Assembly (NCBI GenBank): GCA_002478885.1
Contig: DLKC01000059.1
Coordinates: 1-47,933, forward strand
Direction: 5' to 3'
DNA from: Chitinophagaceae bacterium UBA7600
Lineage (GTDB): Bacteria > Bacteroidota > Bacteroidia > Chitinophagales > Chitinophagaceae
DNA length: 47,933 bases
Below the pieces are notes generated by a model. It had not been told where the DNA came from. It saw nothing but the letters and a program-made list of their open reading frames with translations, and did not search any database. Shown here piece by piece: positions 9,758-47,594 of the stretch. A program made the translations under genes and the position numbers. Numbering within the stretch: position 1 is the stretch's first letter; each line of letters starts with the position of its first letter.

Positions 9758-9777
9758 GTTGTGTCACTCACTTGTAC
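9758..9777 (-). repeat. Dispersed 20-bp element, copy 1 (variant; left half of inverted pair)
   Basis: The plus strand reads GTTGTGTCACTCACTTGTAC. It differs from the common form GTTGCGTCGCACACTTGTAC at positions 5, 9 and 11; the copy at 31522-31541 carries the same three changes. It pairs with the opposite-facing copy at 9904-9923 (outer span 166 bp). Confidence 0.85.
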
Positions 9778-9903
9778 GCCACCATCTTTCTTCAGCAAAG
9801 TTTGGACGACCAATAGCAATTGTAGTATGGTTGCTTTTGTGTCAACCCGCACATTATACATCTCCCACATTGTTAAAAAAAGTTGCTGACTAATATTCCG
9901 GTC

Positions 9904-9923
9904 GCTGAAGTGTGCGACGCAAC
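9904..9923 (+). repeat. Dispersed 20-bp element, copy 2 (right half of inverted pair)
   Basis: AAGTGTGCGACGCAAC (9908-9923) matches the consensus exactly and is followed by AAAAGCTC. The outer GTAC end is degenerate (GCTG). Confidence 0.85.
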
Positions 9924-10380
9924 AAAAGCTCAAAATGGATCTTGGCGCCAGGTACAAAAAACCAACACACACCTGGAAAAATAACTAATTCAGTTCGCCT
10001 GAAACAACTGCTCCGGCCTAAATGGTTATCATCATTTACGTCCTGGCCGTTTGCGCAAGTCATGATCGCTTCAGAATCCCTCCTATTAAATTCTCATTAA
10101 AAAAAGCGCATATATTAGATATACTTTCTAATCACCCCATTATATAGCAAAGGATTTGTATTTTTCCATTTCATTAATGCAGCATTCCGGATTTTTTCGG
10201 AATACTGCCTTTTTGACCAATACCATAAAAACCATGTGTCAGCTTCCAACCAAAACCCCTTTCCGGTGGTCACCCCTTAATAATCAGCCCAACATCACGC
10301 TTTCAGAAAGGCTAATTTTTATAGTTGACTGCATTCTTTGTAACCAGGTTTGGACGAAGTGCCTCGGCCTGTTTACGTTT

Positions 10381-13300
10381 ATGGGCGCTACAAAAAAAAG
10401 GCGCATACTGCCTTTTATTTCAACATCGTTTTTCTGTTTATTTTTTTTACTAAATGCCTTCTTAACACAAGGCCAATCAATTTCGGTAACAAGCCTTAGC
10501 GGATCGCCTCTGTGTGCCGGTTCAAACTTTACTATTACTTTCAGAACCACCAACGGCAATGGTTCATCAAATTATTATACAAACTCCACTACTTATACCG
10601 TTTATCTTAGCTCATCAACGGGTGGCACACCTTATACTTCAATAGGAACTTTTACGACGACAGGGGTAAGCTATTCGAATTCCAACGGTGGACAAACAAC
10701 GGGCATTACCAAATCTTTTACCATGCCCGCCACGACAGCATCAGGTTCGGGCTACAAAATAGCCCTTGGGTCTACTTCACCTACATTCAATGGCAGCGGC
10801 GGTTCCGGCGCTACGGGAACACTAACGGTGAACGCCATTCCGGTATTTACAACACAACCTTCTACTTCGGTACAAAATATTTGCCTGAACGGTGCCGCTA
10901 CAGCTTTGTCTATAACTGCCAGTGCAGGCAGCGGGTCGATAAGTGGATACCAGTGGTATAAAAATGCTTCAGCTTCAAACAGTGGCGGCACATCAATTGC
11001 CGGCGCCACATCCGCATCGTATACACCGTTGACCTCAGTTACCGGCACTTTGTATTATTATTGCGTTGTTACCAACTCAAATGGCTGCAGCACTGCGTCC
11101 AACGTTTCCGGGGCGATAACAATCAATGCGCTGCCCTCGATAACTGTTCAGCCCTCCACAGCCACGCAGAGTCTTTGTCTAAACAGCACCCCAACCGCAT
11201 TGTCTGTCACCGCATCGGCGGGTAGTGGTTCAATCAGTGGTTACCAGTGGTATAAAAATGCTGCTGCATCCAACAGTGGCGGCACCTTGTTAGCAGGAGC
11301 AACTGGTTCCAGTTACAACCCATCGACTGCAGCGACCGGAACGCTTTACTATTATTGTATTGTTACCAATTCGAATGGCTGTACAGTCACATCAAACGTG
11401 TCAGGAGCAATAACGGTTAATGCTTTACCGTCCTTTACGACCCAACCATCAACTGCAGCACAAACGCTTTGCCTAAATGCTACTGCAACCACTCTGTCAA
11501 TAGCTGCAACAGCAGGAAGCGGATCTATTACGGGATACCAATGGTACAGTAACAGCGTAGCATCAAACAGCGGAGGCTCTTTAATTGCAGGTGCAGTTTC
11601 CACCTCTTACACTCCACAAACAACAGTCGCCGGCGTTCTTTATTACTATTGTGTAGTAACCAATTCTAACGGATGTACTTTGGCGAGTAACGTCTCAGGT
11701 GCCATCACCATTAATGCGTTACCCGCTTTCTCAGTTCAGCCTTCCACTGCCACTCAGAATCTTTGTTTAAACAGCACCCCAACTGCTTTGTCCGTAACCG
11801 CGTCTGCAGGTAGTGGTTCAATCAGTGGTTACCAGTGGTATAAAAATGCTGCCGCATCCAACAGTGGCGGCACGTTGATTGCGGGGGCAACTGCTTCCAG
11901 TTACAGCCCGTCGACGGCGGCGACCGGAACGCTTTATTATTATTGCATCGTTACAAATTCAAACGGGTGTACAGCAACATCAAATATCTCCGGCGCCATA
12001 ACAGTAAATGCTCTACCCTCCATTAGTATTCAGCCATCCACATCCCCTCAAAATCTTTGTCTTAACGCTGCAGCAACCGCTTTATCGATCACCGCAGCGG
12101 CGGGCAGTGGCTCGATAAGTGGCTACCAATGGTATAGCAATACCACTGCTTCAAACAGCGGGGGTACTTTGATTGCCGGCGCCACAACTTCATCGTATAC
12201 ACCCGTAACCACAGTAGCCGGCACTTTGTATTATTACTGTATCGTTACCAACTCGAACGGATGCAGCATTACGTCAAATATTTCCGGAGCTGTAATAGTT
12301 ACAGGATTTCCAACTATTACGGCCCAGCCTTCCACTGCAATACAAAGTCTTTGCCTCAACGCCGCAGCTACAGCCCTGTCTGTAACCGCATCCGGCACCG
12401 CCTTGACGTATCAGTGGTATAGCAATAGTGCCGCTTCAAATACAGGTGGCACCCTGATACCGGCTGCAACTACAGCCAGTTACACACCCTCCACAGCAGT
12501 TGCCGGAACGCTTTACTATTATTGTATTGTGACGGGAACCTGTTCACTCTCTGTTACCAGTAACATATCAGGCGCCATAACAACCATTTCGGTACCGGTA
12601 ACACCGGGAAGTATTACCGGGAACGCGACATTTTGTGCAGGGTCTACCGGTAACGTCTACAGTATTGCCGCTGTTCCGGGCGCTACTTCGTATACCTGGA
12701 GTTATTCCGGAACAGGGGCCACTATCACCAATGGTACGACTGCCACTGCAACTATTAATTTTTCACTAACCGCTACGAGTGGCACGTTATCGGTGACAGC
12801 TAATAACAGTTGCGGATCAAGCGCCGCATCCACATTAGCGTTGACGGTTAATGCCATCACCAGCCAACCCGCAAATGATGTATCAAATCCCGGGGGCGCA
12901 ACTACCACATTTTCAGTCACTGCCAGCGGCACCGTAACCAGCTACCAGTGGCAATACAGCGCCAACGGCACGAGCGGATGGGCAAACGTTTCCAATGGCA
13001 GCCCCACAGGCATAACCTATGCGAACAACACTACTGCCGATCTTGATGTAAGCCCAGCAATTTCCACAACTTTTGGCACCTACTATTACAGGTGTATTGT
13101 AACCACCAGCAGTTGCACATTCACCAGCAATACAGCAACCCTGATCATTAGCGATGTTAACGACCTTTGCGCAAACGCCATACCTTTAACAATCAATGCG
13201 CCTGCGGTGAACGGTTCCCTGGTCAACTCAACGTTCAATGCTCCTTTTGGATCTAATGATGTCTGGTATAAAATAACGCCGTCTTGCACGGTAAATCATA

Positions 13301-16300
13301 CAATTACTGTATCGGGTTTTAGTGGCAGTGGCGGAAACGTGGACTGGGAAATCTATAATAGTTCAGGCTGCCCTGTCTCCACAAGTTATCTCGATCAGTC
13401 GAACAGCGGCTCTGACCCCGAAACAAAAAATATAAGCCTTGTTTCAGGAACAACCTACTACATAAGAGTGCTGGCATTTAATGCCGCAGCCAATAACAGT
13501 AATTTCACCATCGCTGTAACAAGCAATGCACCATCATTTGCGCTCGACAATACCGGCACGCCTGCCACAGGAAATGTTTTAGTTAACGCTTCAAATGTTC
13601 CCCTGTTCGGATTTATGTTAACGCCAACAGGTTGTTCTGCGACTTTTAATTTTACCGGGATTAGCATCACGGCAACAGGTACAGCCAATGCAACTGATCT
13701 TTCCAATTTTCAAATTATTTATGATGCCAATAATAACGGCGTCAAGGATCTCGGGGAAAGCAGCATATCGGGCGCTGGAAAGAACTGGTCGCCGACCTTG
13801 AACTTCACCATTACCGGCCAAACCGGGCTCACCGGGGCAAAAAGATATTTGTTGATTGCTGATGTGGCTTTAGGTGCGACAAATAACAGGACGTTTACAG
13901 GTAACCTGGTCAACACCGGTGTAAGTGCCGGTGTGGCGGTTACAGGCAGTGCTGCGGGAAATGTGCTAACCATAAAAAGTCCGCTGGCAACCATTACGGC
14001 TATTCATCCCGCAGCGGGAACCATTGATCAAAACACGACGGGCAACATTCTGGCAACATTCAAAATTGATGCATCATTTAATACCGTCATTCCTACAGGT
14101 ATAACTGTAACCACTGCGGGAACTTACATACCGAGCACGGATATTACGCGCTTTAGTCTTTACCAGAATAATGCTAATAATACGATCAGCCCAACACTGA
14201 TAGCAACCATTACAACCTTTGGATCTGCGCCTGCCACACTTGTTTTTTCCGGTACAGGCAGCCCGATATCAGCAGGTTCAACGCAATACCTGTTCGTTAC
14301 GGCAGATGTGCCGCTTTCCGGCACTGATCTGAATACTGTAAATATTACTGCCACAGCTTTAGCCAACTTTAGTTTTACCGGTGCCAGTGGCGAAACCGTG
14401 GTAAAAGCCGGGACCGACCCTGCCACCGTTGGCCCGGTGAAAACAATTAACGGGCCGAGAATTAACATATTGCAGGTGCATCCTGCCGCCGGAAATATCA
14501 CACAGGGCACTATTGATAACCAGATCGCGACTTACCAATTGAATGTAACCAACTTAAGCACCGGTTTTGTGAACATCCAAAACGTTAGTTTAAAAACAGC
14601 GGGAACCTATGTGGCCGGTGATATCACCAGTTTTAGTTTATGGCAGAACAGTGCAAACACATTAACAGGCGCAACCCTTGTCGGGACCATTTCAGCATCT
14701 TCGTTTGCGTCAGGGCAAACCCTTACGTTTAACTCCGGTTTTCTTCAAATTGCGAATGCAGGCTACAGTTATCTTATGCTAACGGCCAATGTTAATTCCA
14801 CCGCAACCCTAACCAAAACACTATCGATCACCAGCACCAGTTTCACTAACCTCAATTTTATCAGTTCGTGGGGTAGTAAAGTAGCAAAGCTTGGTACTGA
14901 TCCTGCGCCTGCCAGCAATACACAAACCATTGTTGGTCCGCAGGCGGCCATTTCAACTGCACACCCGCTGGCAGGAAATATGCTGGTAGGTAGTACGGAT
15001 AACTTATTAGCCGCTTTCAAAGTAATTGTGAGCAACGCGGACGTTATGCCAACGTCGGTAAAACTTGTTACAAGTTCGGGTACGTACAGCGGCTCTACTG
15101 ACATCCTGAAATTCAAACTTTACCAAAATGATGCTAATAGTCTTACCAGCGCAACCCTGGTAGGTACCATTAGCGCTACTGTGGGCTCATCACAAACACT
15201 TACTTTCAATACAGGGTTTACAAGCATCCCTGCCGGCACAACAGGCTACCTCCTACTTTGTGCCGACTTGACCGGCAGTGCTACTTCGACAAAAAATATT
15301 AGTATCACGGCCACGCCTATTGGCAATTTTGCTTTCTCAAGTACAGGTCCGGTAGTTGTGTCTGGTTCAGCATCTCTGCCAGTTTCCAATAATCAAACGA
15401 TTGTTCCAAAACTTGACGTTTATTCCAGCAATACAAAAAATTGGGACAACACGACTTCAAACTGGGGACAGAATGCCAACGGTGCAGGAGGCGGCTATGC
15501 CAACAGCGTTTGGATAACCAACGGATACGCGCAACTGGAGGGAACTGCCGGACAGCTAACTGTAACCAATCCTGTAGTCGCTGACAAGTTGATTTCACTT
15601 GTCAATAATTATAAAATTGATGCAAGTACGACATCTAATGGAATTACACTGACATCGCCGGGTACCGTCAACGTGAGCACAGGCACCTCATTTATCGGCA
15701 ACACATCAACCAACCCGGTTATTTACGGCACTAATGGCTTTACAAAAATTGGCTCCGGCGAATTGCAGATTGGCAGTGACCTTGCTTCCACGTTCAGTGG
15801 TACTATTTACGTAAACGGCGGAACACTAACCCTGGGAAAGAAAGCCGGAGGTTATAACCCTCTCACAACACTTGAGAATAACCCTATTGAGATGGACAAT
15901 GCACGCCTGACTATTGCAGCCAGTTCCGGTTCAAGCGGCTCTATGCAAAATTTCACTTCGTTGTCGGTAACGGGAGCTGACACAATTGGCTTGTATTCGA
16001 CAGGAAGCAGTGTTTATATGAATGTAACGCCAGTCACAAATGCCTCAACCTTTGGCTCTTCTAACGGAGTACCTTTAACTATCAGTGGCAGCCTTAAAGT
16101 CGATAATGGTGGCTCGGCAAATACAAAAGGATCTTTTGCCAATGCTACAAATCAAAACTTTATAGCCTTTGGAAGTGTCAAATACAACAGTGATGTTACT
16201 TTCGAAGCCTGGGCCAGTAATGCCAGTTTGAAAAAGAGAACAGGTGATATGATCAATATTAACCTGGGGGGCTACGGACATTATATAACCGGCGTTGCCG

Positions 16301-19300
16301 TGGCGTCCGGAACAATTGACGACAATGGTTACACTTCAACATTTTTAGGTGGGGGTGGTATTGCAACGGATGGAGGTGCAGTTTGCCTAAATGCAGCAGC
16401 AAGCACTATGACAGGTAATTGGGTAATAGGCGATGCTGCCGGGGTTAATGCTGCCTGGGTGGTTACAAATACTTCCACCTGTCTTACAACAGGTTCAATA
16501 ACCATCAATAACTATAGTAAGCTGAACCTTCAATTGTCAACTCCGGGGAACTCAACCATTACTTATTCTCCCAGTGTTATCAATGTATATGGACTGGGGC
16601 CATACAGCAAAACCAACAGTTATACTTTTGGTTCTGCTCTTGATTTCTACGACTTTGCAAGGGCCACCGACACCATCACACTTCCAACCAATATCACTTT
16701 GAATCCGGTTTACAACTCTAAACTCGCGGCAATTGGTGTAATGATCGGGGATGATTCAACGAGCAGTTCATCGGGTTCGCTTGCGGCATTTCAGCTAAAC
16801 GGCACTGTTACAGGTACCGGAGGCCTTGAAAAAACAGGTCCAGGTATTTTAATACTCAATGCACAAAACGGTTCCGGCTTTTTCAACACCTACTCCGACA
16901 GTACCAGGATCATTAGAGGCACTTTGACCATCAATACGGGGTCAAATTTAGGTACGGGTCCAGTATTGATGTCTCAGATCACAAAAAACAGCACAGCCCT
17001 GAATTTTTACAATACCAGTCAAACGATCTCTTCCCTGGCAACGCAATGGGCCGACAATTCAGGCCAATCGCAGGTAATTACTTTGAACGGCACCACACTC
17101 ACTGTAAATCAAAACGTATCCACCACTTTCGGTAATGGCACCGGCACTTCAACAGGCTATATAAAAGGCACCGGTAATCTTATTAAGGATGGCAGCGGCA
17201 CACTGACCTTAACCGGAGTGAATATCTATACAGGCTTAACGCAGGTTAAAGGCGGCACACTGGAATTGAAAAATAGTGCTGCTACTACCCTTCCAACTAC
17301 CAACAGCGTGGACATAGTTGGCGGCACTTTATTACTATCGGCCAACCAAACATTGAATAACGTTACGCTTTCTACCGGTAATCTAACCCTGGGTGCCAAT
17401 GTTACCCTCACTATCAGCGGTACTTTGACCCTGGCGACATCACCTGCAAATATTACACTTGGAGCAAATGCCAAAATAATTTATGGCGCCAACGCCTCAC
17501 TTGTTTATGCAGGCAATGCCTTACAGCAAACGAGTGTGAATGACAAGGAATTGCCTTCTGCGAACCCTCCTACGAATGTCACCTTTAGCAATTTTTCAAC
17601 CGCTGGTGTTCAATGGACCAGCAATCTTTCCTTTGCGGGCACTACAACAGTGGCTGGCTGGGTGGATATGAATGGCAAGACCATCAGTGGTGCGGGAAGT
17701 TTTGTATTGAACGGCTTCCTGGGTGGCCCCCTGTCTTCTAAAATTGTATCGGGCTCTCCCATCGTTTCAAGCGTAAATACCAATAATGTAAGAATAGGGA
17801 TGACTGTTACCGGAACGGGCATACCAGCCAATACAACCGTCATCTATATTGATCCACTGAATAGTAAGACAGTTACATTGAACAACAACGCAACTGCCAC
17901 AGGAACCGTATCACTCACCTTTGGTTTCAGGGGCGGCCTTATCGTTTCACAACCAACAGGTATTGACGGACATATCCTCGTGTCGGGTACCAAAACTTAC
18001 AATTCGGGAGCAAATTATATATTCAAAACACCCTTATCAGGCACCACTATTTTCCCAGCATTCCCAACTGTAGGCACCCTGAATTACAGCCCTGCAAATG
18101 ATGTAACAATCGCTGCCGGTGTAACCAACAAGGTGATCATGAACACAAGTTCTGCGAATCTCACTGTTTCGAACAATCTTTCACTGACGAGCGGCATCTG
18201 GGTTACCAACAATAACCTTATTACCTGGTCTAACAGCGGAGGAACACTCACTGCACCCAATACTCCATGGGTTTCGGGTAGCAGTTCGCATAATAATAGT
18301 TATATCTGTACCTGCACCAGCAGCGGGAACCCGATTACTGCCACCGGCAGCAATGGCTTCCGCATCAATAGCGTTACAGGGAATACCGATGTTTACTTCC
18401 CGATTGGCGTAGACTTTGTTTCGTCAAACAGAATGGCATTGAACATGAACAACTCGGCTACGTCAAACTTTACAGTCGTGCTTGGCAAGGGAGACCTGTT
18501 AGGAACACCTCAGTCGAGAGTAAACCGAATCTGGTACATTAGTTCATCCGGCACTGGGGTTAAGGCTAGCATGAAACTATATTTCACCAAAAGAAACTGG
18601 AGTAGCAATCCATTCCTTACTGCCCAGGATGAAGTTGAAACAGGCTACCTTTATAACGATAATCACCTTATCCAGAGAGATTATTCCGGCGCGTTCCTAA
18701 ACACCTCTGCTTCCACAGATATCGTAAACTTTATTAGTACTGCAGATAACACCGAAGTTTATGGCATGTACAATTATAATGTAAGTGCCGATTACGCCGG
18801 AGCAAAGAATGGTATTAACAGTTTTTCAAGATTCTCGATTGTCAATGGCAATAGCATCATTCTTCCGGTATCGATTGTTGATTTCAAAGCCGCACAACAG
18901 GGTTCAGGAATCAACGTGCAATGGAAGGTGCTTAATGAATTGAATATCGATCATTACGAAATTCAAAAGTCGCTCAACGGCGTTGCGTTCTCCACGATCG
19001 CTTCTGTAAAGGCGTTGAACAATGACATGCCGGTTAATCAATATGCAATCGCCGACGGCAAACCTGTTACCGGGAACAACTTCTACAGGATTAAAACTTT
19101 TGACAAAAACAACACAATCACCTATACCGAAATTATTGATGTTAAAATAGCCGAAGGTATCGCTTCGTCATCGATCAGGTTTTATCCCAACCCCGTTACC
19201 AACCATGCGCTTAACATCCAGTTAAACAACCTGCCTGCCGGCCGGTACAATGTTTCGCTTTACAATGCTGCGGGACAAAAAGTGCTTGACCGTGTTTTTG

Positions 19301-19422
19301 ATCACGCAGGCAATGCCGCAACGCAACAGGTTATGTTGCCTGCCAACATTTCAAAGGGCACTTACCTTGTAAAACTGTTTAATGAAACAACTTATATAAC
19401 CACCAAAATAATGGTGCAATAG
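10381..19422 (+). CDS. Giant T9SS-exported repeat protein with autotransporter-type beta-helix repeats
   Basis: I start at ATG 10381 (3013 residues) because it opens with MGATKKRR, a hydrophobic stretch and TQGQS, a good signal peptide; the frame stays open back to 10156 but the extra 75 residues look random. Order: signal peptide (1-33), Ig-like start, six 98-residue Ig-like repeats (154-738), further PKD-like units, a PPC-like domain after DVNDLCANAIPL (about 924-1050), related beta-sandwich units with I-H-P-A-A-G starts (about 1057-1674; one holds the calcium-loop-like DANNNGVKD), a beta-helical section with passenger-type repeats such as GSGTLTLTG and GGTLEL (about 1674-2380), and a C-terminal region from about 2614 closely related to that of the previous gene, ending in a T9SS type A sorting tail (RFYPNP near 2933). 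Probably a cell-surface or secreted adhesin-like structural protein. No catalytic motif is seen; the ligand is unknown. Confidence 0.88.
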   Translation: MGATKKRRILPFISTSFFCLFFLLNAFLTQGQSISVTSLSGSPLCAGSNFTITFRTTNGNGSSNYYTNSTTYTVYLSSSTGGTPYTSIGTFTTTGVSYSNSNGGQTTGITKSFTMPATTASGSGYKIALGSTSPTFNGSGGSGATGTLTVNAIPVFTTQPSTSVQNICLNGAATALSITASAGSGSISGYQWYKNASASNSGGTSIAGATSASYTPLTSVTGTLYYYCVVTNSNGCSTASNVSGAITINALPSITVQPSTATQSLCLNSTPTALSVTASAGSGSISGYQWYKNAAASNSGGTLLAGATGSSYNPSTAATGTLYYYCIVTNSNGCTVTSNVSGAITVNALPSFTTQPSTAAQTLCLNATATTLSIAATAGSGSITGYQWYSNSVASNSGGSLIAGAVSTSYTPQTTVAGVLYYYCVVTNSNGCTLASNVSGAITINALPAFSVQPSTATQNLCLNSTPTALSVTASAGSGSISGYQWYKNAAASNSGGTLIAGATASSYSPSTAATGTLYYYCIVTNSNGCTATSNISGAITVNALPSISIQPSTSPQNLCLNAAATALSITAAAGSGSISGYQWYSNTTASNSGGTLIAGATTSSYTPVTTVAGTLYYYCIVTNSNGCSITSNISGAVIVTGFPTITAQPSTAIQSLCLNAAATALSVTASGTALTYQWYSNSAASNTGGTLIPAATTASYTPSTAVAGTLYYYCIVTGTCSLSVTSNISGAITTISVPVTPGSITGNATFCAGSTGNVYSIAAVPGATSYTWSYSGTGATITNGTTATATINFSLTATSGTLSVTANNSCGSSAASTLALTVNAITSQPANDVSNPGGATTTFSVTASGTVTSYQWQYSANGTSGWANVSNGSPTGITYANNTTADLDVSPAISTTFGTYYYRCIVTTSSCTFTSNTATLIISDVNDLCANAIPLTINAPAVNGSLVNSTFNAPFGSNDVWYKITPSCTVNHTITVSGFSGSGGNVDWEIYNSSGCPVSTSYLDQSNSGSDPETKNISLVSGTTYYIRVLAFNAAANNSNFTIAVTSNAPSFALDNTGTPATGNVLVNASNVPLFGFMLTPTGCSATFNFTGISITATGTANATDLSNFQIIYDANNNGVKDLGESSISGAGKNWSPTLNFTITGQTGLTGAKRYLLIADVALGATNNRTFTGNLVNTGVSAGVAVTGSAAGNVLTIKSPLATITAIHPAAGTIDQNTTGNILATFKIDASFNTVIPTGITVTTAGTYIPSTDITRFSLYQNNANNTISPTLIATITTFGSAPATLVFSGTGSPISAGSTQYLFVTADVPLSGTDLNTVNITATALANFSFTGASGETVVKAGTDPATVGPVKTINGPRINILQVHPAAGNITQGTIDNQIATYQLNVTNLSTGFVNIQNVSLKTAGTYVAGDITSFSLWQNSANTLTGATLVGTISASSFASGQTLTFNSGFLQIANAGYSYLMLTANVNSTATLTKTLSITSTSFTNLNFISSWGSKVAKLGTDPAPASNTQTIVGPQAAISTAHPLAGNMLVGSTDNLLAAFKVIVSNADVMPTSVKLVTSSGTYSGSTDILKFKLYQNDANSLTSATLVGTISATVGSSQTLTFNTGFTSIPAGTTGYLLLCADLTGSATSTKNISITATPIGNFAFSSTGPVVVSGSASLPVSNNQTIVPKLDVYSSNTKNWDNTTSNWGQNANGAGGGYANSVWITNGYAQLEGTAGQLTVTNPVVADKLISLVNNYKIDASTTSNGITLTSPGTVNVSTGTSFIGNTSTNPVIYGTNGFTKIGSGELQIGSDLASTFSGTIYVNGGTLTLGKKAGGYNPLTTLENNPIEMDNARLTIAASSGSSGSMQNFTSLSVTGADTIGLYSTGSSVYMNVTPVTNASTFGSSNGVPLTISGSLKVDNGGSANTKGSFANATNQNFIAFGSVKYNSDVTFEAWASNASLKKRTGDMININLGGYGHYITGVAVASGTIDDNGYTSTFLGGGGIATDGGAVCLNAAASTMTGNWVIGDAAGVNAAWVVTNTSTCLTTGSITINNYSKLNLQLSTPGNSTITYSPSVINVYGLGPYSKTNSYTFGSALDFYDFARATDTITLPTNITLNPVYNSKLAAIGVMIGDDSTSSSSGSLAAFQLNGTVTGTGGLEKTGPGILILNAQNGSGFFNTYSDSTRIIRGTLTINTGSNLGTGPVLMSQITKNSTALNFYNTSQTISSLATQWADNSGQSQVITLNGTTLTVNQNVSTTFGNGTGTSTGYIKGTGNLIKDGSGTLTLTGVNIYTGLTQVKGGTLELKNSAATTLPTTNSVDIVGGTLLLSANQTLNNVTLSTGNLTLGANVTLTISGTLTLATSPANITLGANAKIIYGANASLVYAGNALQQTSVNDKELPSANPPTNVTFSNFSTAGVQWTSNLSFAGTTTVAGWVDMNGKTISGAGSFVLNGFLGGPLSSKIVSGSPIVSSVNTNNVRIGMTVTGTGIPANTTVIYIDPLNSKTVTLNNNATATGTVSLTFGFRGGLIVSQPTGIDGHILVSGTKTYNSGANYIFKTPLSGTTIFPAFPTVGTLNYSPANDVTIAAGVTNKVIMNTSSANLTVSNNLSLTSGIWVTNNNLITWSNSGGTLTAPNTPWVSGSSSHNNSYICTCTSSGNPITATGSNGFRINSVTGNTDVYFPIGVDFVSSNRMALNMNNSATSNFTVVLGKGDLLGTPQSRVNRIWYISSSGTGVKASMKLYFTKRNWSSNPFLTAQDEVETGYLYNDNHLIQRDYSGAFLNTSASTDIVNFISTADNTEVYGMYNYNVSADYAGAKNGINSFSRFSIVNGNSIILPVSIVDFKAAQQGSGINVQWKVLNELNIDHYEIQKSLNGVAFSTIASVKALNNDMPVNQYAIADGKPVTGNNFYRIKTFDKNNTITYTEIIDVKIAEGIASSSIRFYPNPVTNHALNIQLNNLPAGRYNVSLYNAAGQKVLDRVFDHAGNAATQQVMLPANISKGTYLVKLFNETTYITTKIMVQ
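10840..12594 (+). repeat. Six tandem in-frame repeats, period exactly 294 bp
   Basis: Units start at 10840, 11134, 11428, 11722, 12016 and 12310. The first five are exactly 294 bp (98 residues) and the last is 285 bp, having lost the G-S-G-S-I-S-G segment. Core motifs are Q-P-S-T, L-C-L-N, G-Y-Q-W-Y, S-N-S-G-G, Y-Y-Y-C and S-N-G-C. Units 2 and 4 share a 65-bp stretch (11221-11285 and 11809-11873) with one mismatch, far above their flanking similarity. Confidence 0.92.
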
Positions 19423-19531: not shown

Positions 19532-19551
19532 GTTGCGTCGCACACCTGTGC
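19532..19551 (-). repeat. Dispersed 20-bp element, copy 3 (left half of inverted pair)
   Basis: The plus strand reads GTTGCGTCGCACACCTGTGC, one change (T to C) from the GTGC-ended consensus. It lies 58 bp beyond the terminator at 19442-19473 and pairs with a degenerate copy at 19613-19632 (outer span 101 bp). Confidence 0.85.
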
Positions 19552-19612: not shown

Positions 19613-19632
19613 TGAACGTATTGCGACGCAAC
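19613..19632 (+). repeat. Dispersed 20-bp element, copy 4 (degenerate right half)
   Basis: Only the inner part TGCGACGCAAC (19622-19632) is retained; the GTACAAG side has decayed. It is called as a copy because it has the same orientation and place as the right half of the other three pairs. Confidence 0.55.
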
Positions 19633-23674: not shown

Positions 23675-23694
23675 GTTGCGTCGCACTCTTGTAC
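23675..23694 (-). repeat. Dispersed 20-bp element, copy 5
   Basis: The plus strand reads GTTGCGTCGCACTCTTGTAC, the W=A form of the consensus. It sits alone in the 105-bp gap between the cyclophilin start and the purE stop. Confidence 0.9.
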
Positions 23695-25466: not shown

Positions 25467-25562
25467 ATGCTACCAGATTATCCACATAAAATATTTAAGG
25501 ACAGGCGGAACAACTACAATCTGCTGATGGAAGCGCTTGCCATGGACGCCCGTTACTACTGA
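25467..25562 (+). CDS. Possible 31-residue small protein, uncertain
   Basis: An ATG-to-TGA frame encodes MLPDYPHKIFKDRRNNYNLL followed by an ending in DARYY. It lies in the purK-hppD divergent region, just downstream of an AT-rich GGATTTTTATAACTTTACG stretch. The composition is protein-like, but no family is recognised and there is no ribosome-binding site. It may be a genuine small gene, a remnant or chance. Confidence 0.2.
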   Translation: MLPDYPHKIFKDRRNNYNLLMEALAMDARYY

Positions 25563-25604: not shown

Positions 25605-25624
25605 GTACAAGAGTGCGACGCAAC
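25605..25624 (+). repeat. Dispersed 20-bp element, copy 6
   Basis: It reads GTACAAGAGTGCGACGCAAC, a full match to the W=A form. It lies 62 bp before the hppD start, in the only divergent gap that carries a copy. Confidence 0.92.
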
Positions 25625-26920: not shown

Positions 26921-26940
26921 GTTGCGTCGCACACTTGTAC
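26921..26940 (-). repeat. Dispersed 20-bp element, copy 7
   Basis: The plus strand reads GTTGCGTCGCACACTTGTAC, a perfect consensus copy preceded by GCAGCTTC. It lies 34 bp beyond the hppD terminator. Confidence 0.93.
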
Positions 26941-29636: not shown

Positions 29637-29656
29637 GTACAAGTGTGCGACGCAAC
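29637..29656 (+). repeat. Dispersed 20-bp element, copy 8
   Basis: It reads GTACAAGTGTGCGACGCAAC, a perfect consensus copy followed by CAAAGCTCC. It is a single copy 92 bp beyond the ABC-F stop. Confidence 0.93.
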
Positions 29657-31521: not shown

Positions 31522-31541
31522 GTTGTGTCACTCACTTGTAC
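31522..31541 (-). repeat. Dispersed 20-bp element, copy 9 (variant)
   Basis: The plus strand reads GTTGTGTCACTCACTTGTAC, identical over all 20 bases to the variant at 9758-9777 some 21.8 kb away. It is preceded by CAGCTTC as in standard copies and is a single copy in the 208-bp gap. Confidence 0.87.
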
Positions 31542-34541: not shown

Positions 34542-34561
34542 CTTGCGTCGCACTCTTGTAC
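34542..34561 (-). repeat. Dispersed 20-bp element, copy 10 (left half of inverted pair)
   Basis: The plus strand reads CTTGCGTCGCACTCTTGTAC and is preceded by GGCTTTG. It pairs with 34666-34685; the outer span is exactly 144 bp. Confidence 0.92.
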
Positions 34562-34665: not shown

Positions 34666-34685
34666 GCACAAGTGTGCGACGCAAC
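34666..34685 (+). repeat. Dispersed 20-bp element, copy 11 (right half of inverted pair)
   Basis: It reads GCACAAGTGTGCGACGCAAC followed by GAAAGC, a full consensus copy of the GCAC-ended form. Confidence 0.93.
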
Positions 34686-34726: not shown

Positions 34727-35761
34727 TCAATTTACTTTTTTCAACAAAACTATATAGGTAGGAAAGTGATCGCTATAGCCGCCGCGATAGGTATTACCAT
34801 CCCATGTGCGCATTGGGTAACCTTTGTATTTTCCCATATTCTCGATCATGAACTGCTTGTTGAAAATATGCTGCCGGTAATAAAAAAATCCCTGTTGATT
34901 TTTATCAAGCCATGACTGGCTGATGATGATCTGGTCAAACAAGCCCCAAGCGTCGTTGTAAGCAAGTGTGCCTATGCCTTTTTTATACATTTCAACCCAT
35001 GGATTAAACAAGCCGCCGGGCTTTACTTCGGCTGCATTGCCTTTGGCGCCGAGCACTTTGGTAATACTTTTATTTACAGGGTCGTCGTTGAGATCACCGG
35101 TAACAATAAATTTTGCACCAGGTTCGGCCTTTTGAATACTGTCGATAAAATTTCTGTCAACCTGCGCTGCGGCGAAACGCCCGGGCGCACTGCGCTCTTC
35201 ACCACCCAAACGGCTTGGCCAGTGGTTTACAAAAACATGAACAGTTTCTCCGTCCAGTTTTCCTTTTACCCACAATACATCTCTTGTGAAAATATTTTCT
35301 TTGGCCCCTTCCGGCAGGCGTACAAATAATTTCCGGCTGTCTTCAATGGTAAAATATGTTGGATTGTACAATAGCGCTACATCTACACCTCGAAGGTCAT
35401 GGGAATCGTAGTGAACAACCTTATAATTGCGGCTTCGCAACAACGGGTGATGAATGAGATCGTTCAACACCGTATCATTCTCGATCTCGGCAACGCCTAT
35501 GATTGCCGGGCCGTCGGGATTAATATCCGTTCCCATTTGAGAGAGCACGGTTGCAAGATGCTGCACTTTATCGCGGTAAATTTTGCTATTATAATTCCTT
35601 GCACCACCCGGGGTGAAGTCATCGTCGTTCACTACAGGATTATCAATCGTGTCATAAAAATTTTCAAGATTATAAAAAGCCACAACGGCAACCTTGTATT
35701 GCTGTTGCGCATGCAAAGAAATAGCAGGCAAAATAAAAAACAGGCTTAAGGCAATTCGCAT
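34727..35761 (-). CDS. Exported endonuclease/exonuclease/phosphatase (EEP) family enzyme
   Basis: The protein has 344 residues from ATG 35761 (MRIALSLFFILPAISLHAQ, a clear signal peptide); the frame extends to 35794 with 11 less likely residues. EEP-fold motifs are complete: N-L-E-N-F-Y, G-V-A-E-I-E-N-D (metal-binding Glu), V-N-H-W-P-S-R (His), T-G-D-L-N-D-D-P (Asp/Asn), and the terminal S-D-H-F-P (catalytic Asp-His). It hydrolyses phosphodiester or phosphomonoester bonds in the periplasm or outside the cell; DNA, RNA or another phosphoester are all possible. It is divergent, across 112 bp, from the TonB receptor and the OB-fold/lamin-tail lipoprotein genes, an arrangement that suggests they act together. 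Confidence 0.88.
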   Translation of the reverse strand: MRIALSLFFILPAISLHAQQQYKVAVVAFYNLENFYDTIDNPVVNDDDFTPGGARNYNSKIYRDKVQHLATVLSQMGTDINPDGPAIIGVAEIENDTVLNDLIHHPLLRSRNYKVVHYDSHDLRGVDVALLYNPTYFTIEDSRKLFVRLPEGAKENIFTRDVLWVKGKLDGETVHVFVNHWPSRLGGEERSAPGRFAAAQVDRNFIDSIQKAEPGAKFIVTGDLNDDPVNKSITKVLGAKGNAAEVKPGGLFNPWVEMYKKGIGTLAYNDAWGLFDQIIISQSWLDKNQQGFFYYRQHIFNKQFMIENMGKYKGYPMRTWDGNTYRGGYSDHFPTYIVLLKKVN

Positions 35762-35832
35762 AGGGATAAAACTAACTAAAACCACGAAAAACAAAAACAG
35801 CCGGCGCTATTGTATTCTTCAAAAAATCGCTG

Positions 35833-38494: not shown

Positions 38495-38514
38495 GTTGCG
38501 TCGCACACTTGTGC
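38495..38514 (-). repeat. Dispersed 20-bp element, copy 12
   Basis: The plus strand reads GTTGCGTCGCACACTTGTGC and is preceded by AGGCTTCC. It is a single copy 47 bp after the receptor stop, between the receptor and lipoprotein genes, so these two may have separate promoters. Confidence 0.93.
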
Positions 38515-40641: not shown

Positions 40642-40653
40642 CAGGAAATTATT

Positions 40654-42283: not shown

Positions 42284-42303
42284 GCACAAGAGTGCGACGC
42301 AAG
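42284..42303 (+). repeat. Dispersed 20-bp element, copy 13
   Basis: It reads GCACAAGAGTGCGACGCAAG, followed by CAAAGCAT. It lies between the aspartate kinase terminator and the peptidase start. Reading through it produces a false N-terminal extension of the peptidase (LASHSC). Confidence 0.92.
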
Positions 42304-42336
42304 CAAAGCATAATATTGGGCTGAAGCCTGGCAAAT

Positions 42337-42364: not shown

Positions 42365-42384
42365 CGAATATTATATAACCACTT

Positions 42385-43704
42385 TTACAAATTGAATACG
42401 CCTTTGTTAATAAGTTGCAGTGTTTGCTTTTTGTAAGAAGCGGGAATAAGAATGGAAATATTGTGTTTGCTGCCGCCGTAGCTCACCATGCGCACGGGAA
42501 CACTACTGATTGAATCAAACACTTTTTTCAGCACATCCGGAGTCTGCGCAATTTCGTTGCCAACGAGCGATACAATAGCCTGGTCGGTATCGATCTCAAC
42601 ATTGCCAAATGGGTCGAGCTCGCGGATGATCGCATCGAGATGAGTGTCGCTGTCGATTGTTACACTTACCGCCACTTCGGAAGTGGTGATCATATCTATC
42701 GAAGTTTTGTACTTTTCAAACACTTCGAATATTTTTCGCAGGAAGCCATAAGCCAGCAACATACGGCTGCTCTTGATTTTGATCGCGATAATACCATCCT
42801 TTGCCGCGACAGCCTTTGCGCCAACACTGTCGGCATCTTCCTGGATGGTTGTGCCTTTCGCTTCGGGCTGCATGGTATTGAGCAATTTAACAGGAACGTT
42901 ATAATGTTGCGCAGGCCATATACATGCCGGATGCAAAATTTTGGCGCCGAAATAGGCAAGCTCTGCAGCTTCATCGAAACTGAGCAGTTCGACCGGGATC
43001 GTTTTCTCTACAATGCGTGGATCATTGTTGTGCATACCATCGATATCAGTCCATATTTCGCAAACAGATGCATTGATCGCCGCCGCAACCAGCGATGCAG
43101 TGTAATCACTGCCTCCACGTTTCAGGTTATCAACTTCACCTCTTATGTTACGGCAGATATAACCTTGCGTGATAAATAATTTTACACTTGCGTGCTGTTG
43201 CAGCAACTGGCTCAGCTTAACTTTTATACTCCCGATCTGCGGTTCTTCATTGGCATCGATGCTCATAAATTCAAGCGCTGGCAGCAGTAAGTGGTCTATA
43301 CCGTTTTCTTCCAGGTAAACACAGAAAAGTTTGGTGCTCATCAGCTCGCCCTGCGCAAGGATATCTTTATTAAGTGCTTCGCTGAAAGATATTTTCAGGA
43401 TGATATTTAAAAATTCGAAGTGCTCTGTAACAATAGCATTGGCATTTGCAAGCGAAGCATCAGAGTGCACCAATGTTTGCACAAAATTCCGGTAATGTGC
43501 TTCCAGTTCATCGATCTTACGTTTAGCGCTTTCGCGGTCGCTGTGAGCTATTGAGTCACTTATGCCAACCAGCGCATTGGTTGTTCCGCTTAAAGCACTA
43601 AGTACAACTATCTTTGGTTCATTGTCCGCAGTGATCAGTTGCGCCACCTGGTGCATGCGTTCAGGCTTACCAACACTGGTGCCGCCAAACTTCATTACTT
43701 TCAT
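42385..43704 (-). CDS. lysC: Aspartate kinase
   Basis: The protein has 439 residues. The kinase domain (1 to about 280) starts M-K-V-M-K-F-G-G-T-S-V-G and contains R-G-G-S-D-Y-T-A and W-T-D-I-D-G-M; tandem ACT-type regulatory domains follow (about 300-439; V-A-V-S-V-T-I-D and V-S-L-V-G-N). It phosphorylates aspartate, the first step to lysine, threonine and methionine. It is monofunctional, with no homoserine dehydrogenase part, and the ACT domains imply feedback control by an end product, which cannot be specified. It stands alone, with its own promoter-like box at 43772 and a terminator at 42337. Confidence 0.95.
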   Translation of the reverse strand: MKVMKFGGTSVGKPERMHQVAQLITADNEPKIVVLSALSGTTNALVGISDSIAHSDRESAKRKIDELEAHYRNFVQTLVHSDASLANANAIVTEHFEFLNIILKISFSEALNKDILAQGELMSTKLFCVYLEENGIDHLLLPALEFMSIDANEEPQIGSIKVKLSQLLQQHASVKLFITQGYICRNIRGEVDNLKRGGSDYTASLVAAAINASVCEIWTDIDGMHNNDPRIVEKTIPVELLSFDEAAELAYFGAKILHPACIWPAQHYNVPVKLLNTMQPEAKGTTIQEDADSVGAKAVAAKDGIIAIKIKSSRMLLAYGFLRKIFEVFEKYKTSIDMITTSEVAVSVTIDSDTHLDAIIRELDPFGNVEIDTDQAIVSLVGNEIAQTPDVLKKVFDSISSVPVRMVSYGGSKHNISILIPASYKKQTLQLINKGVFNL

Positions 43705-43771
43705 GAGAAAATTCCCCCCGCTCCCCCGTCCTCAGAAGAGGATTATTTTAATGGTTAAAAAAAATTGACTG

Positions 43772-43779
43772 CAAATGTA
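43772..43779 (-). promoter_or_regulatory. Bacteroidota-type -7 box for aspartate kinase
   Basis: The minus strand reads TACATTTG, an exact TAnnTTTG match 67 bp before the start codon at 43704. A TTG lies only 9 nt upstream of it, closer than the usual -33 distance. Confidence 0.45.
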
Positions 43780-43889
43780 TACTCTGCGCAAGAAATTGCG
43801 GAAGAATTTTTCCAAACGTTGATTGGGTGTGAGTTGTAAGATTTTTGTTGTTTTTTTGAGCCCTGCTGTTGAATAAGAATGCGGCTTCC

Positions 43890-43909
43890 GTTGCGTCGCA
43901 CTCGTGTGC
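43890..43909 (-). repeat. Dispersed 20-bp element, copy 14 (left half of inverted pair)
   Basis: The plus strand reads GTTGCGTCGCACTCGTGTGC, preceded by GCGGCTTCC. One T-to-G change lies outside the core. It pairs with 44014-44033; the outer span is exactly 144 bp, as at 34542-34685. Confidence 0.9.
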
Positions 43910-44013
43910 AATTCCTCCTAAACTCAGCAAACACGAAAAGGCCAAAGCGATTTATACAATGACAAAGTTTTCCCGGGCTTTCGGCCTTTGGTCTTTCCGA
44001 CTTGTATTCAACC

Positions 44014-44033
44014 GTACAAGTGTGCGACGCAAC
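44014..44033 (+). repeat. Dispersed 20-bp element, copy 15 (right half of inverted pair)
   Basis: It reads GTACAAGTGTGCGACGCAAC, a perfect consensus copy followed by AGCAGC. Confidence 0.93.
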
Positions 44034-44072
44034 AGCAGCTTAATAGCGAAATGATGCCGGGTGCCAAAAGTT

Positions 44073-45809
44073 TCACCTTCCCTTGTACACGATTTTACCT
44101 TCGAACATGGTCCAAAGCACTTTTGTGTGCAGCATTGCCTCGGGAGCTATAGCAAGAATATCGCGGTCTACAAGTACCATATCAGCAAACTTGCCGGGCT
44201 CTATCGACCCGATGGATTTATCCATCATCAGCAACTTTGCAGCGTTAATGGTGTAAGCATACAGCATATCAATGCGCGGCATGCATTGCGTTGAGTCAAG
44301 CACACCAAGCGGCCCCAGCCTTGTTTCTGCATTGTAGATCGCTTCAAAAGGATTGGCGCTGCTCACCGGCCAATCGCTGGCGCCGCAGATCAACGCGCCG
44401 GCCTGCAACAACGAGCGCGCAGGATATTGCCATTTATAAATGGAAGGATCGATAAAAGGTTTAACAATATCAACGGTTGTTACATCGCCAAAAGCCCAAA
44501 GCAATTGCAATGAAGCAGGAACGTTCAGCTTTTTGAAGCGGTCGAAATCAGTTGGCTGCGCAAACTGGATATGCGTGATGCTATGCGGAATAATGCTGTT
44601 GCCATTTGCTTTGCGGGCAGCTTCAACACCATTCAATGTTTCGGTAACAGCGAGGTCGCCAATGGCATGAGTATGCACCAGCAGTTTTGCCTTATCAGCG
44701 GCGATAACAAACTGCGCAAATTTTTTCGGATCAAACATCAACACGCCTGAAGATGGCTTGTTGGTATAAGGTTTCGAAAGCGCTGCCGTTTGGGTTGGGT
44801 TTTCCACCACCCCATCGGCAAATATTTTAAAGCCAAGAATGGATAAATCTTTCACCTGGTTATACTGTTGCTGCAACGCTTTAAGTGCTGCGATTTGCGG
44901 CTGCGGATCAAGGTTCGCATCTGCAAGCACCACAGCGCTTACATGAGCAGTGAGTTTATTTTTATCAGCCAGCATCTTATAACCTGCAAGCATTTCGTTG
45001 TTTGCTTTCTCAGCAATATTGCCGACACGTGGATCGAGCCATGCAGTTATACCATAACTATTGTTGTATTCCATCGCTTTCTCCCCTGCCAACAACCAGT
45101 TTATTTTAGAATCGGGCAGTACGGGGTCGATTTTGTCAAAACCGCTGTCTGCAAAAAAACCGTTTGGCGTGAGAGACTGGTCGTACCCAAAATATTTTCT
45201 GCGTTCATCGTTCAACGAGCTAATATAAATTCTATTCAACCCCGCCTTGTTAAGAATGATCTTGTTTGCCCAGCCGGTATGGCCGTCAGAGCCGCGCATC
45301 AAAACGGGCATGCCCGCATATTTGCCATTGTTGAAAAGCTCATCCAATTGGTCAAGATGTGACCATGTTGAGATGTTGATGCCATCTATTATAACGAATC
45401 CATCCACAACAGCTTTGCCGGATTGAACATTATCATCAACAAACCTTGCAAGGGAATCGCCGAGCAGTACTTCATCAAATGTATTGGCATGCGTAAGCCC
45501 ATCGCCGCCATCCAGTGCATGCTCATGGCTGTCGATAAATCCGGGTACCAGCAATTTGCCTCCCAGGTCAACCTGCAAAGCATTTGTGCTTAAAGATTTT
45601 TTTACTTCTGCATAATTACCCACCGCAACGATCTTATCATCCCTGATAGCAACAGCTTCTGCATAAGGATTGCTCCTGTTTGCGGTAAATATTTTTCCGT
45701 TATAAAAAACCTTCTCCTTCGCGTTACTTACAGCATCCTGCTGCGAAAAAGAAACCCTGGCCAGCAGGCAGCAAAAAGAAACAAGAAATATTGTTCGTAA
45801 CAAAAACAT
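44073..45809 (-). CDS. Exported amidohydrolase, YtcJ-like
   Basis: The protein has 578 residues with a signal peptide (MFLLRTIFLVSFCCLLARVSFSQ). It is an amidohydrolase-3/YtcJ-type metal-dependent hydrolase: a short beta-sandwich edge (F-Y-N-G-K-I-F-T-A), then P-G-F-I-D-S-H-E-H with the metal-binding HxH pair, the mid-barrel H-T-H-A-I-G-D, the late A-S-D-W-P-V with the catalytic Asp, and the C-terminal I-G-S-I-E-P-G-K-F-A-D-M-V-L-V-D that closes the sandwich. Family members hydrolyse amide or related C-N bonds of small molecules; the substrate is unknown. The signal peptide places it outside the cytoplasm, where it might act on scavenged compounds. Confidence 0.88.
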   Translation of the reverse strand: MFLLRTIFLVSFCCLLARVSFSQQDAVSNAKEKVFYNGKIFTANRSNPYAEAVAIRDDKIVAVGNYAEVKKSLSTNALQVDLGGKLLVPGFIDSHEHALDGGDGLTHANTFDEVLLGDSLARFVDDNVQSGKAVVDGFVIIDGINISTWSHLDQLDELFNNGKYAGMPVLMRGSDGHTGWANKIILNKAGLNRIYISSLNDERRKYFGYDQSLTPNGFFADSGFDKIDPVLPDSKINWLLAGEKAMEYNNSYGITAWLDPRVGNIAEKANNEMLAGYKMLADKNKLTAHVSAVVLADANLDPQPQIAALKALQQQYNQVKDLSILGFKIFADGVVENPTQTAALSKPYTNKPSSGVLMFDPKKFAQFVIAADKAKLLVHTHAIGDLAVTETLNGVEAARKANGNSIIPHSITHIQFAQPTDFDRFKKLNVPASLQLLWAFGDVTTVDIVKPFIDPSIYKWQYPARSLLQAGALICGASDWPVSSANPFEAIYNAETRLGPLGVLDSTQCMPRIDMLYAYTINAAKLLMMDKSIGSIEPGKFADMVLVDRDILAIAPEAMLHTKVLWTMFEGKIVYKGR

Positions 45810-45932
45810 GTAATGAATTTTATTGTGAATTGATTGTCTGTTATTGCAATATAATTCTATAAAAACGTTTGTTCAATATCTTTCCTAAACGGCTCGTCAG
45901 CAGGCAGTGGAGTTAACCCGATGGTGAGACCT

Positions 45933-46451
45933 TCAATTATCAGTCTCTATTAACACATTGACCGTAACCAGTAATTGGCCGGTGTGCCGCATCGTATGTT
46001 CTGCCGAATGAAAAAGCAAACCCAATACTGTTGACGGCAATTGCTTTCTGCCCACGCCACGAAAATCAGTAAGCGTTTGCTCATCAGTAGCGGAGAGTTG
46101 TTTCAATGCAGCTTCCACCTGTAGTTTAAAATTTCCGAGCAACAGATCTTTGGTTATTCCAATGTTTTCTTTGCCTTCAGAAGATAAGTAAGCCGATTGT
46201 TGTTCATTTAACTGTTCATTTTTTGCATAGGCAAACAGCCTGTCAAGCACACCTGTCACATGCTGCAAATGAAAAGCCGGCGAGGCCATACCAGCGGGTT
46301 TATGCCAAAGCAATGCTTCGGGGAAATCCTGCACTATTTCCATCACCTCATCAAGGGCCTGCAAGAGGGCATGCGCAACAGGTTGCAACAAGGCTGGAAT
46401 ATTTTCTACCGGGCCACGCATCCAGTATTCCGGTTGTTTTAATGCTGACAT
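45933..46451 (-). CDS. DinB-family four-helix-bundle protein
   Basis: This 172-residue cytoplasmic protein is of the DinB/YfiT-like superfamily. The conserved metal-site histidines are visible in F-H-L-Q-H-V-T-G-V (about 61-69) and H-S-A-E-H-T-M-R-H-T-G-Q-L (about 147-159). The superfamily includes thiol-dependent S-transferases that may use bacillithiol, which fits a bshC-bearing genome, but the reaction here is unknown. The gene starts 11 bp after the reductase gene stop on the same strand, so the two are co-transcribed. Confidence 0.85.
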   Translation of the reverse strand: MSALKQPEYWMRGPVENIPALLQPVAHALLQALDEVMEIVQDFPEALLWHKPAGMASPAFHLQHVTGVLDRLFAYAKNEQLNEQQSAYLSSEGKENIGITKDLLLGNFKLQVEAALKQLSATDEQTLTDFRGVGRKQLPSTVLGLLFHSAEHTMRHTGQLLVTVNVLIETDN

Positions 46452-46462
46452 TGTGTTGATTT

Positions 46463-47503
46463 TTAAAATTCAATGATCACGTCCCCGCCGACAGGGTATG
46501 ACTGGCAAACCAATATTCTGCCATTTGCCACTTCATCATCTGTAAGAACCTCATTGTAGGCCATCCACACCTGGCCAGACACACATTTGGCTGCGCAACT
46601 GCCGCAACGACCTGCTTCGCAACTGTATGGGAGTAAAATATCATTAGCTTTTGCTACCGCCAATATAGTCGACGGGTATTGTACCGAGAAATTAAATGTT
46701 CTTCCTGCAACATGTATGGTAGCATTATGTCGGGCGGTGTCCGGGGGGACAGGTTTTACCATCCGCGGTAACGTACTGAATTGTTCCTTATAAATATTGG
46801 CACCCGGCACACCATAAGACAGCAGCGTGATCTGTATCATCAGCATATAGTCAAAGGGTCCGCACATATAAAACAAATCAGCGTGATGTGCATCGTACCG
46901 TTTCAAAATAATATTAAGCAGGTAATTGCTTAGCCTTGCTTTCAGTACATTGCTGCTATTACTTTGCAACCATTCAACTGCAAAGCGTTGATTATAAACC
47001 TTTTGAAGCGTCATTATTGATTGCCGAAAAATAGTTTCCTCTTCATTGCGATTGCTGTAAATCAGCACTATTGTTACAGCAGGCCATTTTTCCAGCGCAT
47101 AGCTAATAAGCGAGAAAACAGGGGTAATGCCGCTGCCGGCTGCAAGAAAAAATAAGCGTTTAATTCTTTCATCTTGTTGCTCCGGCAAAGTAAAAAAGCC
47201 GGCAGTACCAGTCGTATAAAATTCATCCCCAACCGATGTGCGATCCAACAGGAATCTTGAATATTCTCCATTCGGAACTCGCTTAACAGTTATTCTTAAC
47301 AGCGATTCCTTACCGGGATGTGAAACGAGTGAGAAGGACCTCCTTTTTTCAACACCCGTGTTATAAAAAAGCAGTGTAAGAAACTGCCCGGGTTGGTATT
47401 CCGGGTTCCATCCGTGCAACGGCTTCAACACAAACGTTTTTGTTGTCGCTGTTTCTACGATAATATCTGTGATCTCAACTTTATGGAGTAATGATGTATC
47501 CAT
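46463..47503 (-). CDS. Flavin- and 2Fe-2S-containing oxidoreductase, ferredoxin-NADP reductase type
   Basis: The protein has 346 residues and three domains: an FAD-binding barrel (about 1-105; R-R-S-F-S-L-V-S), an NAD(P)-binding domain (about 110-245; A-A-G-S-G-I-T-P and M-C-G-P-F-D-Y-M), and a C-terminal plant-type ferredoxin domain with cysteines in S-C-E-A-G-R-C-G-S-C-A plus the distal V-C-Q-S. It passes electrons from NAD(P)H through FAD and the cluster to a partner, as in reductase components of PaaE/HCP-reductase-like oxygenase systems. No oxygenase gene is adjacent; the only operon neighbour is the DinB-family gene 11 bp downstream. Confidence 0.92.
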   Translation of the reverse strand: MDTSLLHKVEITDIIVETATTKTFVLKPLHGWNPEYQPGQFLTLLFYNTGVEKRRSFSLVSHPGKESLLRITVKRVPNGEYSRFLLDRTSVGDEFYTTGTAGFFTLPEQQDERIKRLFFLAAGSGITPVFSLISYALEKWPAVTIVLIYSNRNEEETIFRQSIMTLQKVYNQRFAVEWLQSNSSNVLKARLSNYLLNIILKRYDAHHADLFYMCGPFDYMLMIQITLLSYGVPGANIYKEQFSTLPRMVKPVPPDTARHNATIHVAGRTFNFSVQYPSTILAVAKANDILLPYSCEAGRCGSCAAKCVSGQVWMAYNEVLTDDEVANGRILVCQSYPVGGDVIIEF

Positions 47504-47574
47504 AAAGTTGAAAATAAGATTTACTTAACTAACAAGCGCAGGCATGGCTGTTTATTGCTGAAAAATGTGCCGGC

Positions 47575-47594
47575 GTACAAGTGTGCGACGCAAG
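47575..47594 (+). repeat. Dispersed 20-bp element, copy 16
   Basis: It reads GTACAAGTGTGCGACGCAAG, followed by TAAAG. It is a single copy in the 130-bp gap between the reductase start and the serine dehydratase stop. Confidence 0.92.

Follow-up and report, generated by a model that had tools for sequence, protein, structure and literature searches.

The window, a stretch of 47,933 nucleotides from contig DLKC01000059.1 of Chitinophagaceae bacterium UBA7600 (assembly GCA_002478885.1), carries in its larger intergenic gaps 16 copies of a repeat with a 20-bp core, which probably belongs to a new family of non-autonomous mobile repeats resembling the repetitive extragenic palindromic (REP) sequences and their hairpin-forming doublets (REPINs). 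The original prediction described these sites as one 20-bp element in balanced orientation. The family is real, as 15 of the 16 sites match GYACAAGWGTGCGACGCAAS with at most three mismatches and 100 shuffles gave none, and the strands are used eight to eight; the sixteenth site is a variant subtype, and the single element resolves into a shared core with two classes, core A (TGCGACGC) and core B (AGTGACAC), plus rarer ones. Each core lies at the centre of an arm of about 75–80 bp, and arms occur alone, which is the majority form, or as inverted pairs with their tails outward. The copies in the window are as follows.

9758..9777, minus strand: core B, exact GTACAAGTGAGTGACACAAC; left-hand arm, inverted relative to its partner at 9904
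9904..9923, plus strand: core A in its GCTGAAG variant; right-hand partner of 9758
19532..19551, minus strand: core A with one mismatch; paired with 19613, convergent genes on either side
19613..19632, plus strand: divergent subtype TGAACGTATTGCGACGCAAC, tail CGGCGATGCCA..GGCTTAAAAAAA; the sixteenth site
23675..23694, minus strand: core A, single
25605..25624, plus strand: core A, single; start of an HPPD-like gene (25687) 62 bp downstream
26921..26940, minus strand: core A; tail enters the T-tract of a terminator-like hairpin (by eye) 3' of the HPPD-like gene
29637..29656, plus strand: core A, single
31522..31541, minus strand: core B, exact GTACAAGTGAGTGACACAAC, single
34542..34561, minus strand: core A; paired with 34666 at a spacing of 124
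34666..34685, plus strand: core A; the gene at 34727-35794 has its stop codon 41 bp from the core end
38495..38514, minus strand: core A; the gene that ends at 38447 has its stop codon 47 bp before the core
42284..42303, plus strand: core A; tail enters the T-tract of a terminator-like hairpin (by eye) after aspartate kinase (42385-43704)
43890..43909, minus strand: core A with one mismatch; paired with 44014 at a spacing of 124
44014..44033, plus strand: core A; the gene at 44073-45809 has its stop codon 39 bp from the core end
47575..47594, plus strand: core A, single

The subtype at 19613 reads GATGAACG-NNN-TGCGACGCAAS and joins the shared ending TGCGACGCAAC and a typical tail to another left half. 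Beyond the window, the anticipated excess is borne out in the whole of its own genome (G000, 5.47 Mb in 105 contigs), where the exact 14-mer occurs 1,084 times and its reversed control 0 times, and a pattern for both core classes has 1,583 matches (control 0). Copy numbers across genomes were obtained with one such pattern covering classes A and B, with the reversed pattern as control, and counts of one or two per genome may be chance. Matches occur in 168 of 294 genomes of the same bacterial family, the carriers including bacteria of soil and water, at 1 to 2,414 copies, the maximum being in a relative assembled as a single contig of 5,528,026 bp (G163). In this contig (C1), 820 bp at 2.7 kb and at 5,519 kb are 99.8% alike; its ends probably overlap by about 12 kb, and the copy count is therefore a few too high. 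At up to 2,414 copies on a chromosome of 5.5 Mb, the repeat would rank among the densest known bacterial families of repeats. Many genera hold no copy, congeneric genomes differ widely (0 against 462 in g4, for example), and other families in a 395-genome sample of the phylum gave 0–2 matches each, like the reversed control. A plasmid search with one pair gave no match. Elements also occur on one contig called viral (L350 9433 and its neighbours), one of them in a gap of 90 bp close to genes that match a phage head maturation protease and virion proteins; of ten proteins tested on this contig and another stretch of it, seven had no phage family and one more matched a family of unknown function.

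In the usual arm, TTGCTGA precedes the core GY(AC or TG)AAGWGTGCGACGCAAS, with a spacer between the two; after the core come a variable segment that opens with AAGC or GGCGATGCC, then GCCGGG and CAAAAAA. Column counts over 108 core-A-like arms show a conserved skeleton that extends from about position -20 to position +60 relative to the core, and the 27-bp unit proposed earlier is thus too short for an arm that, in addition, is often paired as a palindrome. Core columns are nearly invariant and tails vary, those of unrelated copies being about 65% alike in gapped alignment. The 408 kb of G000 scanned for placement statistics hold 149 copies, 112 with core A and 37 with core B, and in none of them are the three positions that distinguish the classes mixed. 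Mixed cores are rare in relatives (1 of 89 in G163; TGTGACAC forms in g29 and g113), and further rare classes are GAGCGTGGCAA and NNNTGCGACGCAA. Tail type tracks core type in G163: 199 A arms divide into 99 of type M1, 45 of M2 and 55 unassigned, and 102 B arms into 21, 59 and 22, respectively.

The small dyads within the core, earlier taken as a sign of protein recognition, do not hold up as the key feature, and RNA structure was dropped as a basis for the family, as alignment folding of the 108 arms (RNAalifold) gave nothing past a 3-bp hairpin at -0.4 kcal/mol. It is accordingly very improbable that the repeat is a transcribed RNA element, whether terminator or small RNA: elements do adjoin stop codons and terminators, but they lie in both orientations to genes, fold to at most 3 bp, and the window has 0 Rfam matches above the gathering score. 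A coding origin was also dropped, as the variable A/T position switches V/E and the spacing shifts by one base (by eye), as were the attC boxes of integrons and the ends of group II introns, whose features fit poorly.

The placement of the repeat is strongly intergenic, as had been predicted, with 148 of 149 copies in G000 and 300 of 302 in G163 outside genes called by a simple caller, which in 50 kb of E. coli made 47 calls and recovered 47 of 48 annotated stops. The three copies inside genes among 451 in the two genomes together make it highly unlikely that the repeat is a DNA uptake sequence, maintained through preferential uptake and recombination, an analogue that had been offered alongside REP/REPIN sequences, of which the latter fit best. 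Thousands of copies, equal use of strands, a sharp core, inverted pairs, two dialects and a patchy presence in relatives would all suit uptake; the uptake sequences of Neisseria and Pasteurellaceae, however, are common in coding DNA, from which this repeat is nearly absent, and neither its long skeleton of 80 bp nor multiplied elements of about 135 bp would be expected of them.

The rule that every gap longer than 173 bp has a copy holds within the window, where four gaps of 123–173 bp lack one, but it is weaker genome-wide: copies occupy 110 of 259 gaps in G000 and 71 of the 112 that measure at least 200 bp. Short gaps are empty as described, with no copy in 52 gaps of 1–59 bp. Where an arm faces the 3' end of a gene in G000, the core stands 34–43 bp from the stop codon in 40 of 81 cases, and none is nearer; no core facing a 5' end falls in this range (0 of 62). 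In some other 3'-facing arms, the tail merges with the T-tract of a terminator-like hairpin (by eye). Overall, 80 arms in G000 turn the tail to a 3' end and 58 to a 5' end. Replichore strand bias, which had been raised as a feature to check, is not visible by eye against GC skew in 32 stretches of G163, the strands being equally used.

This regular spacing from stop codons is one argument for a rival explanation, in which the core is a host-maintained site for a lineage-specific DNA-binding protein, such as a nucleoid protein, an insulator, a gyrase recruiter or a polar transcription block, with tails that face transcription units and selection that keeps every core intact. Density per kb speaks on both sides, as in G000 it is highest in convergent gaps (4.2 against 1.6 in divergent ones), while in G163 it varies little with gap type (2.8–3.0, and 1.95 in divergent gaps). 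A near-invariant core beside differing tails would also be expected of such a site, and the scarcity of decayed copies even in the low-copy genomes G189, G241 and G113 is unlike the E. coli REPs. Many genera, however, do without a copy, and the comparisons of shared sites described below go against selection on the core. On balance, a host site is unlikely, though a serious candidate. An extension of it, in which a formerly mobile repeat now forms a genome-wide, lineage-specific boundary system, with two core dialects to which dedicated host proteins bind, a site in roughly two-fifths of intergenic gaps, its tail toward the transcription unit, and intact cores kept by selection or continual replacement, is speculative and rather doubtful.

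The preferred reading, a mobile repeat, draws on the uneven copy numbers and the element near phage head genes described above, and on the way arms are paired. Close pairs are inverted with tails outward in 27 of 27 cases in G000, 58 of 59 in G163, 13 of 15 in G092 and 4 of 4 in G081. In G163, 45 of 58 close pairs join an A to a B core, as against 26 expected (P 5e-7), and there palindromic elements of about 135–205 bp preferentially have an A core at one end and a B core at the other. Long forms with an alignable spacer measure about 205 bp. A compact subfamily, at about 135 bp and with eight copies in 640 kb, has a core spacing of exactly 44 bp and ends and spacer that can be aligned; it looks to have multiplied recently. 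The spacers of long elements (for example L271 15320-15450) hold a second inverted repeat of AGCTATCAGC-like words. Folded as single-stranded DNA, inverted pairs can form a long imperfect hairpin, the energies of 54 G163 pairs having a mean z of -2.6 (15 shuffles each).

A further line of evidence is the state of the copies. Intergenic matches with 0–4 mismatches to the nearest core number 106/35/7/4/3 in G000, 238/69/15/1/2 in G163 and 149/28/8/3/2 in G092, and beyond four mismatches the counts are about those of the shuffled background; read rather than fitted, the spectrum roughly agrees with constant birth and loss. Scored as 17-mers with 0–6 mismatches, G000 gives 112, 32, 6, 4, 8, 58 and 247 (shuffles 0, 0, 0, 1, 7, 54 and 295), whereas the REPs in 300 kb of E. 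coli K-12 give 17, 13, 5, 6, 14, 48 and 171 (shuffles 0, 0, 0, 0, 3, 22 and 111), a broad decay tail that this repeat does not have, although any REP subtype not covered by the E. coli motif used would mimic decay. Low-copy genomes of genus g113 are similarly clean, with exact, one-mismatch and two-mismatch counts of 24/2/3 in G189, 20/0/2 in G241 and 14/4/1 in G113 (reversed controls 6, 5 and 8). Another low-copy genome, G122, tells against a host site with its many two-mismatch matches (25/7/15, control 4), several of which are one repeated variant. On the head side of single arms, an opposite core with 1–3 mismatches was found in 4 of 91, 8 of 182 and 4 of 141. As decayed cores and decayed partners are both scarce, copies are mostly either intact or gone.

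Two species of g113 allowed sites to be followed directly, with 28 of 29 listed sites of G189 plus one core-B site set against all 22 listed sites of G241 plus two core-B sites. Eleven sites are shared of the 29 and 24 compared, nine in alignments 93–99.8% alike and two in alignments 83–87% alike, and the fact that over half are unshared does not favour a host site. Within the 11 orthologous pairs, changes number 6 in 220 core positions, 39 in 637 of head and tail and 71 in 2,129 of outside DNA; core and outside do not differ (P 0.84), and arms changed more (P 0.054). The core thus does not change measurably more slowly than its surroundings, again contrary to a selected site, although 11 pairs make a weak test. 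We conclude, with that same weakness in mind, that gains and losses appear to be fast and that the core is probably kept mainly because core-bearing copies multiply.

Under this mobile-repeat reading, a transposase or recombinase supplied in trans would recognise the core, perhaps in single-stranded and folded form, and copies would be inserted into dispensable intergenic DNA. The core would stay intact since copies with a damaged one would not multiply, while tails and spacers drift, and the gain and loss of copies would outpace decay in place.

A number of results weigh against this reading. The pairing of A with B is at chance in G000 (13 of 27, P 0.23) and in G092 (2 of 13); the mean hairpin z arises in part because the cores are themselves inverted, and one compact copy has a z of only -0.5. 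No clear target-site duplication was found overall, direct repeats at pair ends scoring a negligible 5.40 against 5.26 in G163 and showing a small excess, 5.74 against 5.18, in G000 (27 pairs), with no excess in G081 or G092, and comparisons between genera, whose sequences are too diverged, gave no clean empty site. Beyond 1–3 mismatches, decayed partners of singles show no excess over controls, unlike usual REPINs. The two-species comparison is itself weak, as unshared sites may be partly due to absent genes, contig gaps or cores past two mismatches. Elements also recur in the same gap across genera, which fast random turnover without target preference does not predict: upstream of HPPD, all 6 genomes compared from g1, g81 and g92 have one, as against 1 of 16 other relatives listed, and downstream of aspartate kinase 5 of these 6 do, as against 0 of 4 others. 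Lastly, the Y1 transposase has 0 matches in G163 (2,414 copies) and in G024 (287 copies), and none of the 60 Y1 loci listed, with those lacking a clear reading frame skipped, has an element on both sides.

With regard to the recurrence in the same gaps, presence is correlated over orthologous gaps (39 with both, 34 with neither and 16 with one), the pairs not being independent. Gap length accounts for part of this; where both gaps are at least 150 bp, the counts are 30, 4 and 7. Vertical descent across genera is not claimed, as tails in 37 orthologous pairings are 0.657 alike compared with 0.652 for unrelated ones, and of 17 independent gaps only 12 have elements in the same orientation (P 0.14).

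The Y1 results bear most directly on another rival, a true REPIN population spread by a REP-associated tyrosine transposase (RAYT), a Y1 HUH transposase since lost in some genomes. The architecture resembles REP dimers, heterodimers included, as described in PMC3733652, and Y1 genes are present in 11 of 12 and 16 of 21 genomes of two samples, with three in G000. The low-copy genome G027 has a core beside two of its four Y1 loci. Yet G020 has five Y1 matches and no element, and among the Y1 loci eight sides have an element within 400 bp as against 5.2 expected, a figure from genome-average density that understates the intergenic expectation. The link to a Y1/RAYT gene that had been thought worth checking is thus not seen in the form of a doubly flanked locus, and a RAYT-driven population is improbable. 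A subclass of TnpA_REP from Bacteroidetes, 2.6, whose atypical flanking structures have copies elsewhere in the genome according to PMC6006769, is alike in phylum and in its atypical structures, a comparison by description and not by sequence; the loci of this type that were examined have no copy nearby, which is weak evidence since most are in genomes with few or no copies. No parent transposon was found for the preferred mobile-repeat reading either, less than 12% of each high-copy genome having been read beyond the whole-genome core counts and only Y1 genes checked. In the window's genome, a third-class core (GAGCGTGGCAA) stands 91 bp upstream of a Y1 transposase gene (L053 1285), its tail toward the gene.

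In further comparing the repeat with known systems, the REP/REPIN sequences of the GTAG class, which occur with RAYT transposases, are alike in their short conserved core, extragenic location, hundreds to thousands of copies, and inverted dimers in fixed order with a variable spacer, often near gene 3' ends. They differ in having a GTAG tag and a hairpin of 5–13 bp in the unit, both missing here, where the stem within the core is at most 4 bp by eye (REP stems being 5–13 bp in the GTAG and 8–9 bp in the CGTC class); a RAYT gene is flanked by REPs, and REPIN singlets are decayed dimers, which is not visible for the singles here. The repeat works like a REP/REPIN population, but as hairpin tag, linked RAYT and decayed singlets were not seen, it is classed as a variant and not as a member. 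The CGTC-tagged REPs share other features: Di Nocera et al. 2013 (PMC3733652) describe homo- and heterodimers with no dedicated transposase known, an 8–9 bp stem with complementary A/T in the first two positions, a loop of 4–5 nt and a CCA-like tail, and report such repeats in Bacteroidetes. Core A on its reverse strand reads GTTG-CGTC-GCAC, and core B has TGTC. Compared with that description, the sole CGTC-adjacent stem of core A is 4 bp (GCAC/GTRC) and core B has none (by eye). Miniature inverted-repeat transposable elements are likewise short and non-autonomous with inverted ends, and full-length forms here are about 135–205 bp; they differ in that the repeat has no clear target duplication, no parent transposon found and mostly single arms. 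The repeat stands apart from the families compared in having two core types and no visible transposase.

Like the original prediction, which did not recognise the repeat, searches of the open-access literature by core string and by words found no published description among the matches listed, the core strings matching only papers unrelated by title. No dense repeat of this kind was found described in this bacterial family. Congeneric species with none to hundreds of copies offer a natural experiment on how a repeat spreads and persists without a visible transposase, and the same contrast lets one ask whether small repeats come to serve the host.

Two other features of the window were noted. 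The reading frames at 3-9644 and 10156-19422 are giant, at 3,213 and 3,088 aa; they contain tandem repeats of about 240–294 bp and resemble each other at their 3' ends. A 31-codon reading frame (MLPDYPHKIFKDRRNNYNLLMEALAMDARYY) at 25467-25562 on the plus strand, with purK on one side and the HPPD-like gene on the other, has counterparts 5' of HPPD in many relatives, for example Niastella and Sediminibacterium (by eye), and possibly encodes a leader peptide or a small protein.

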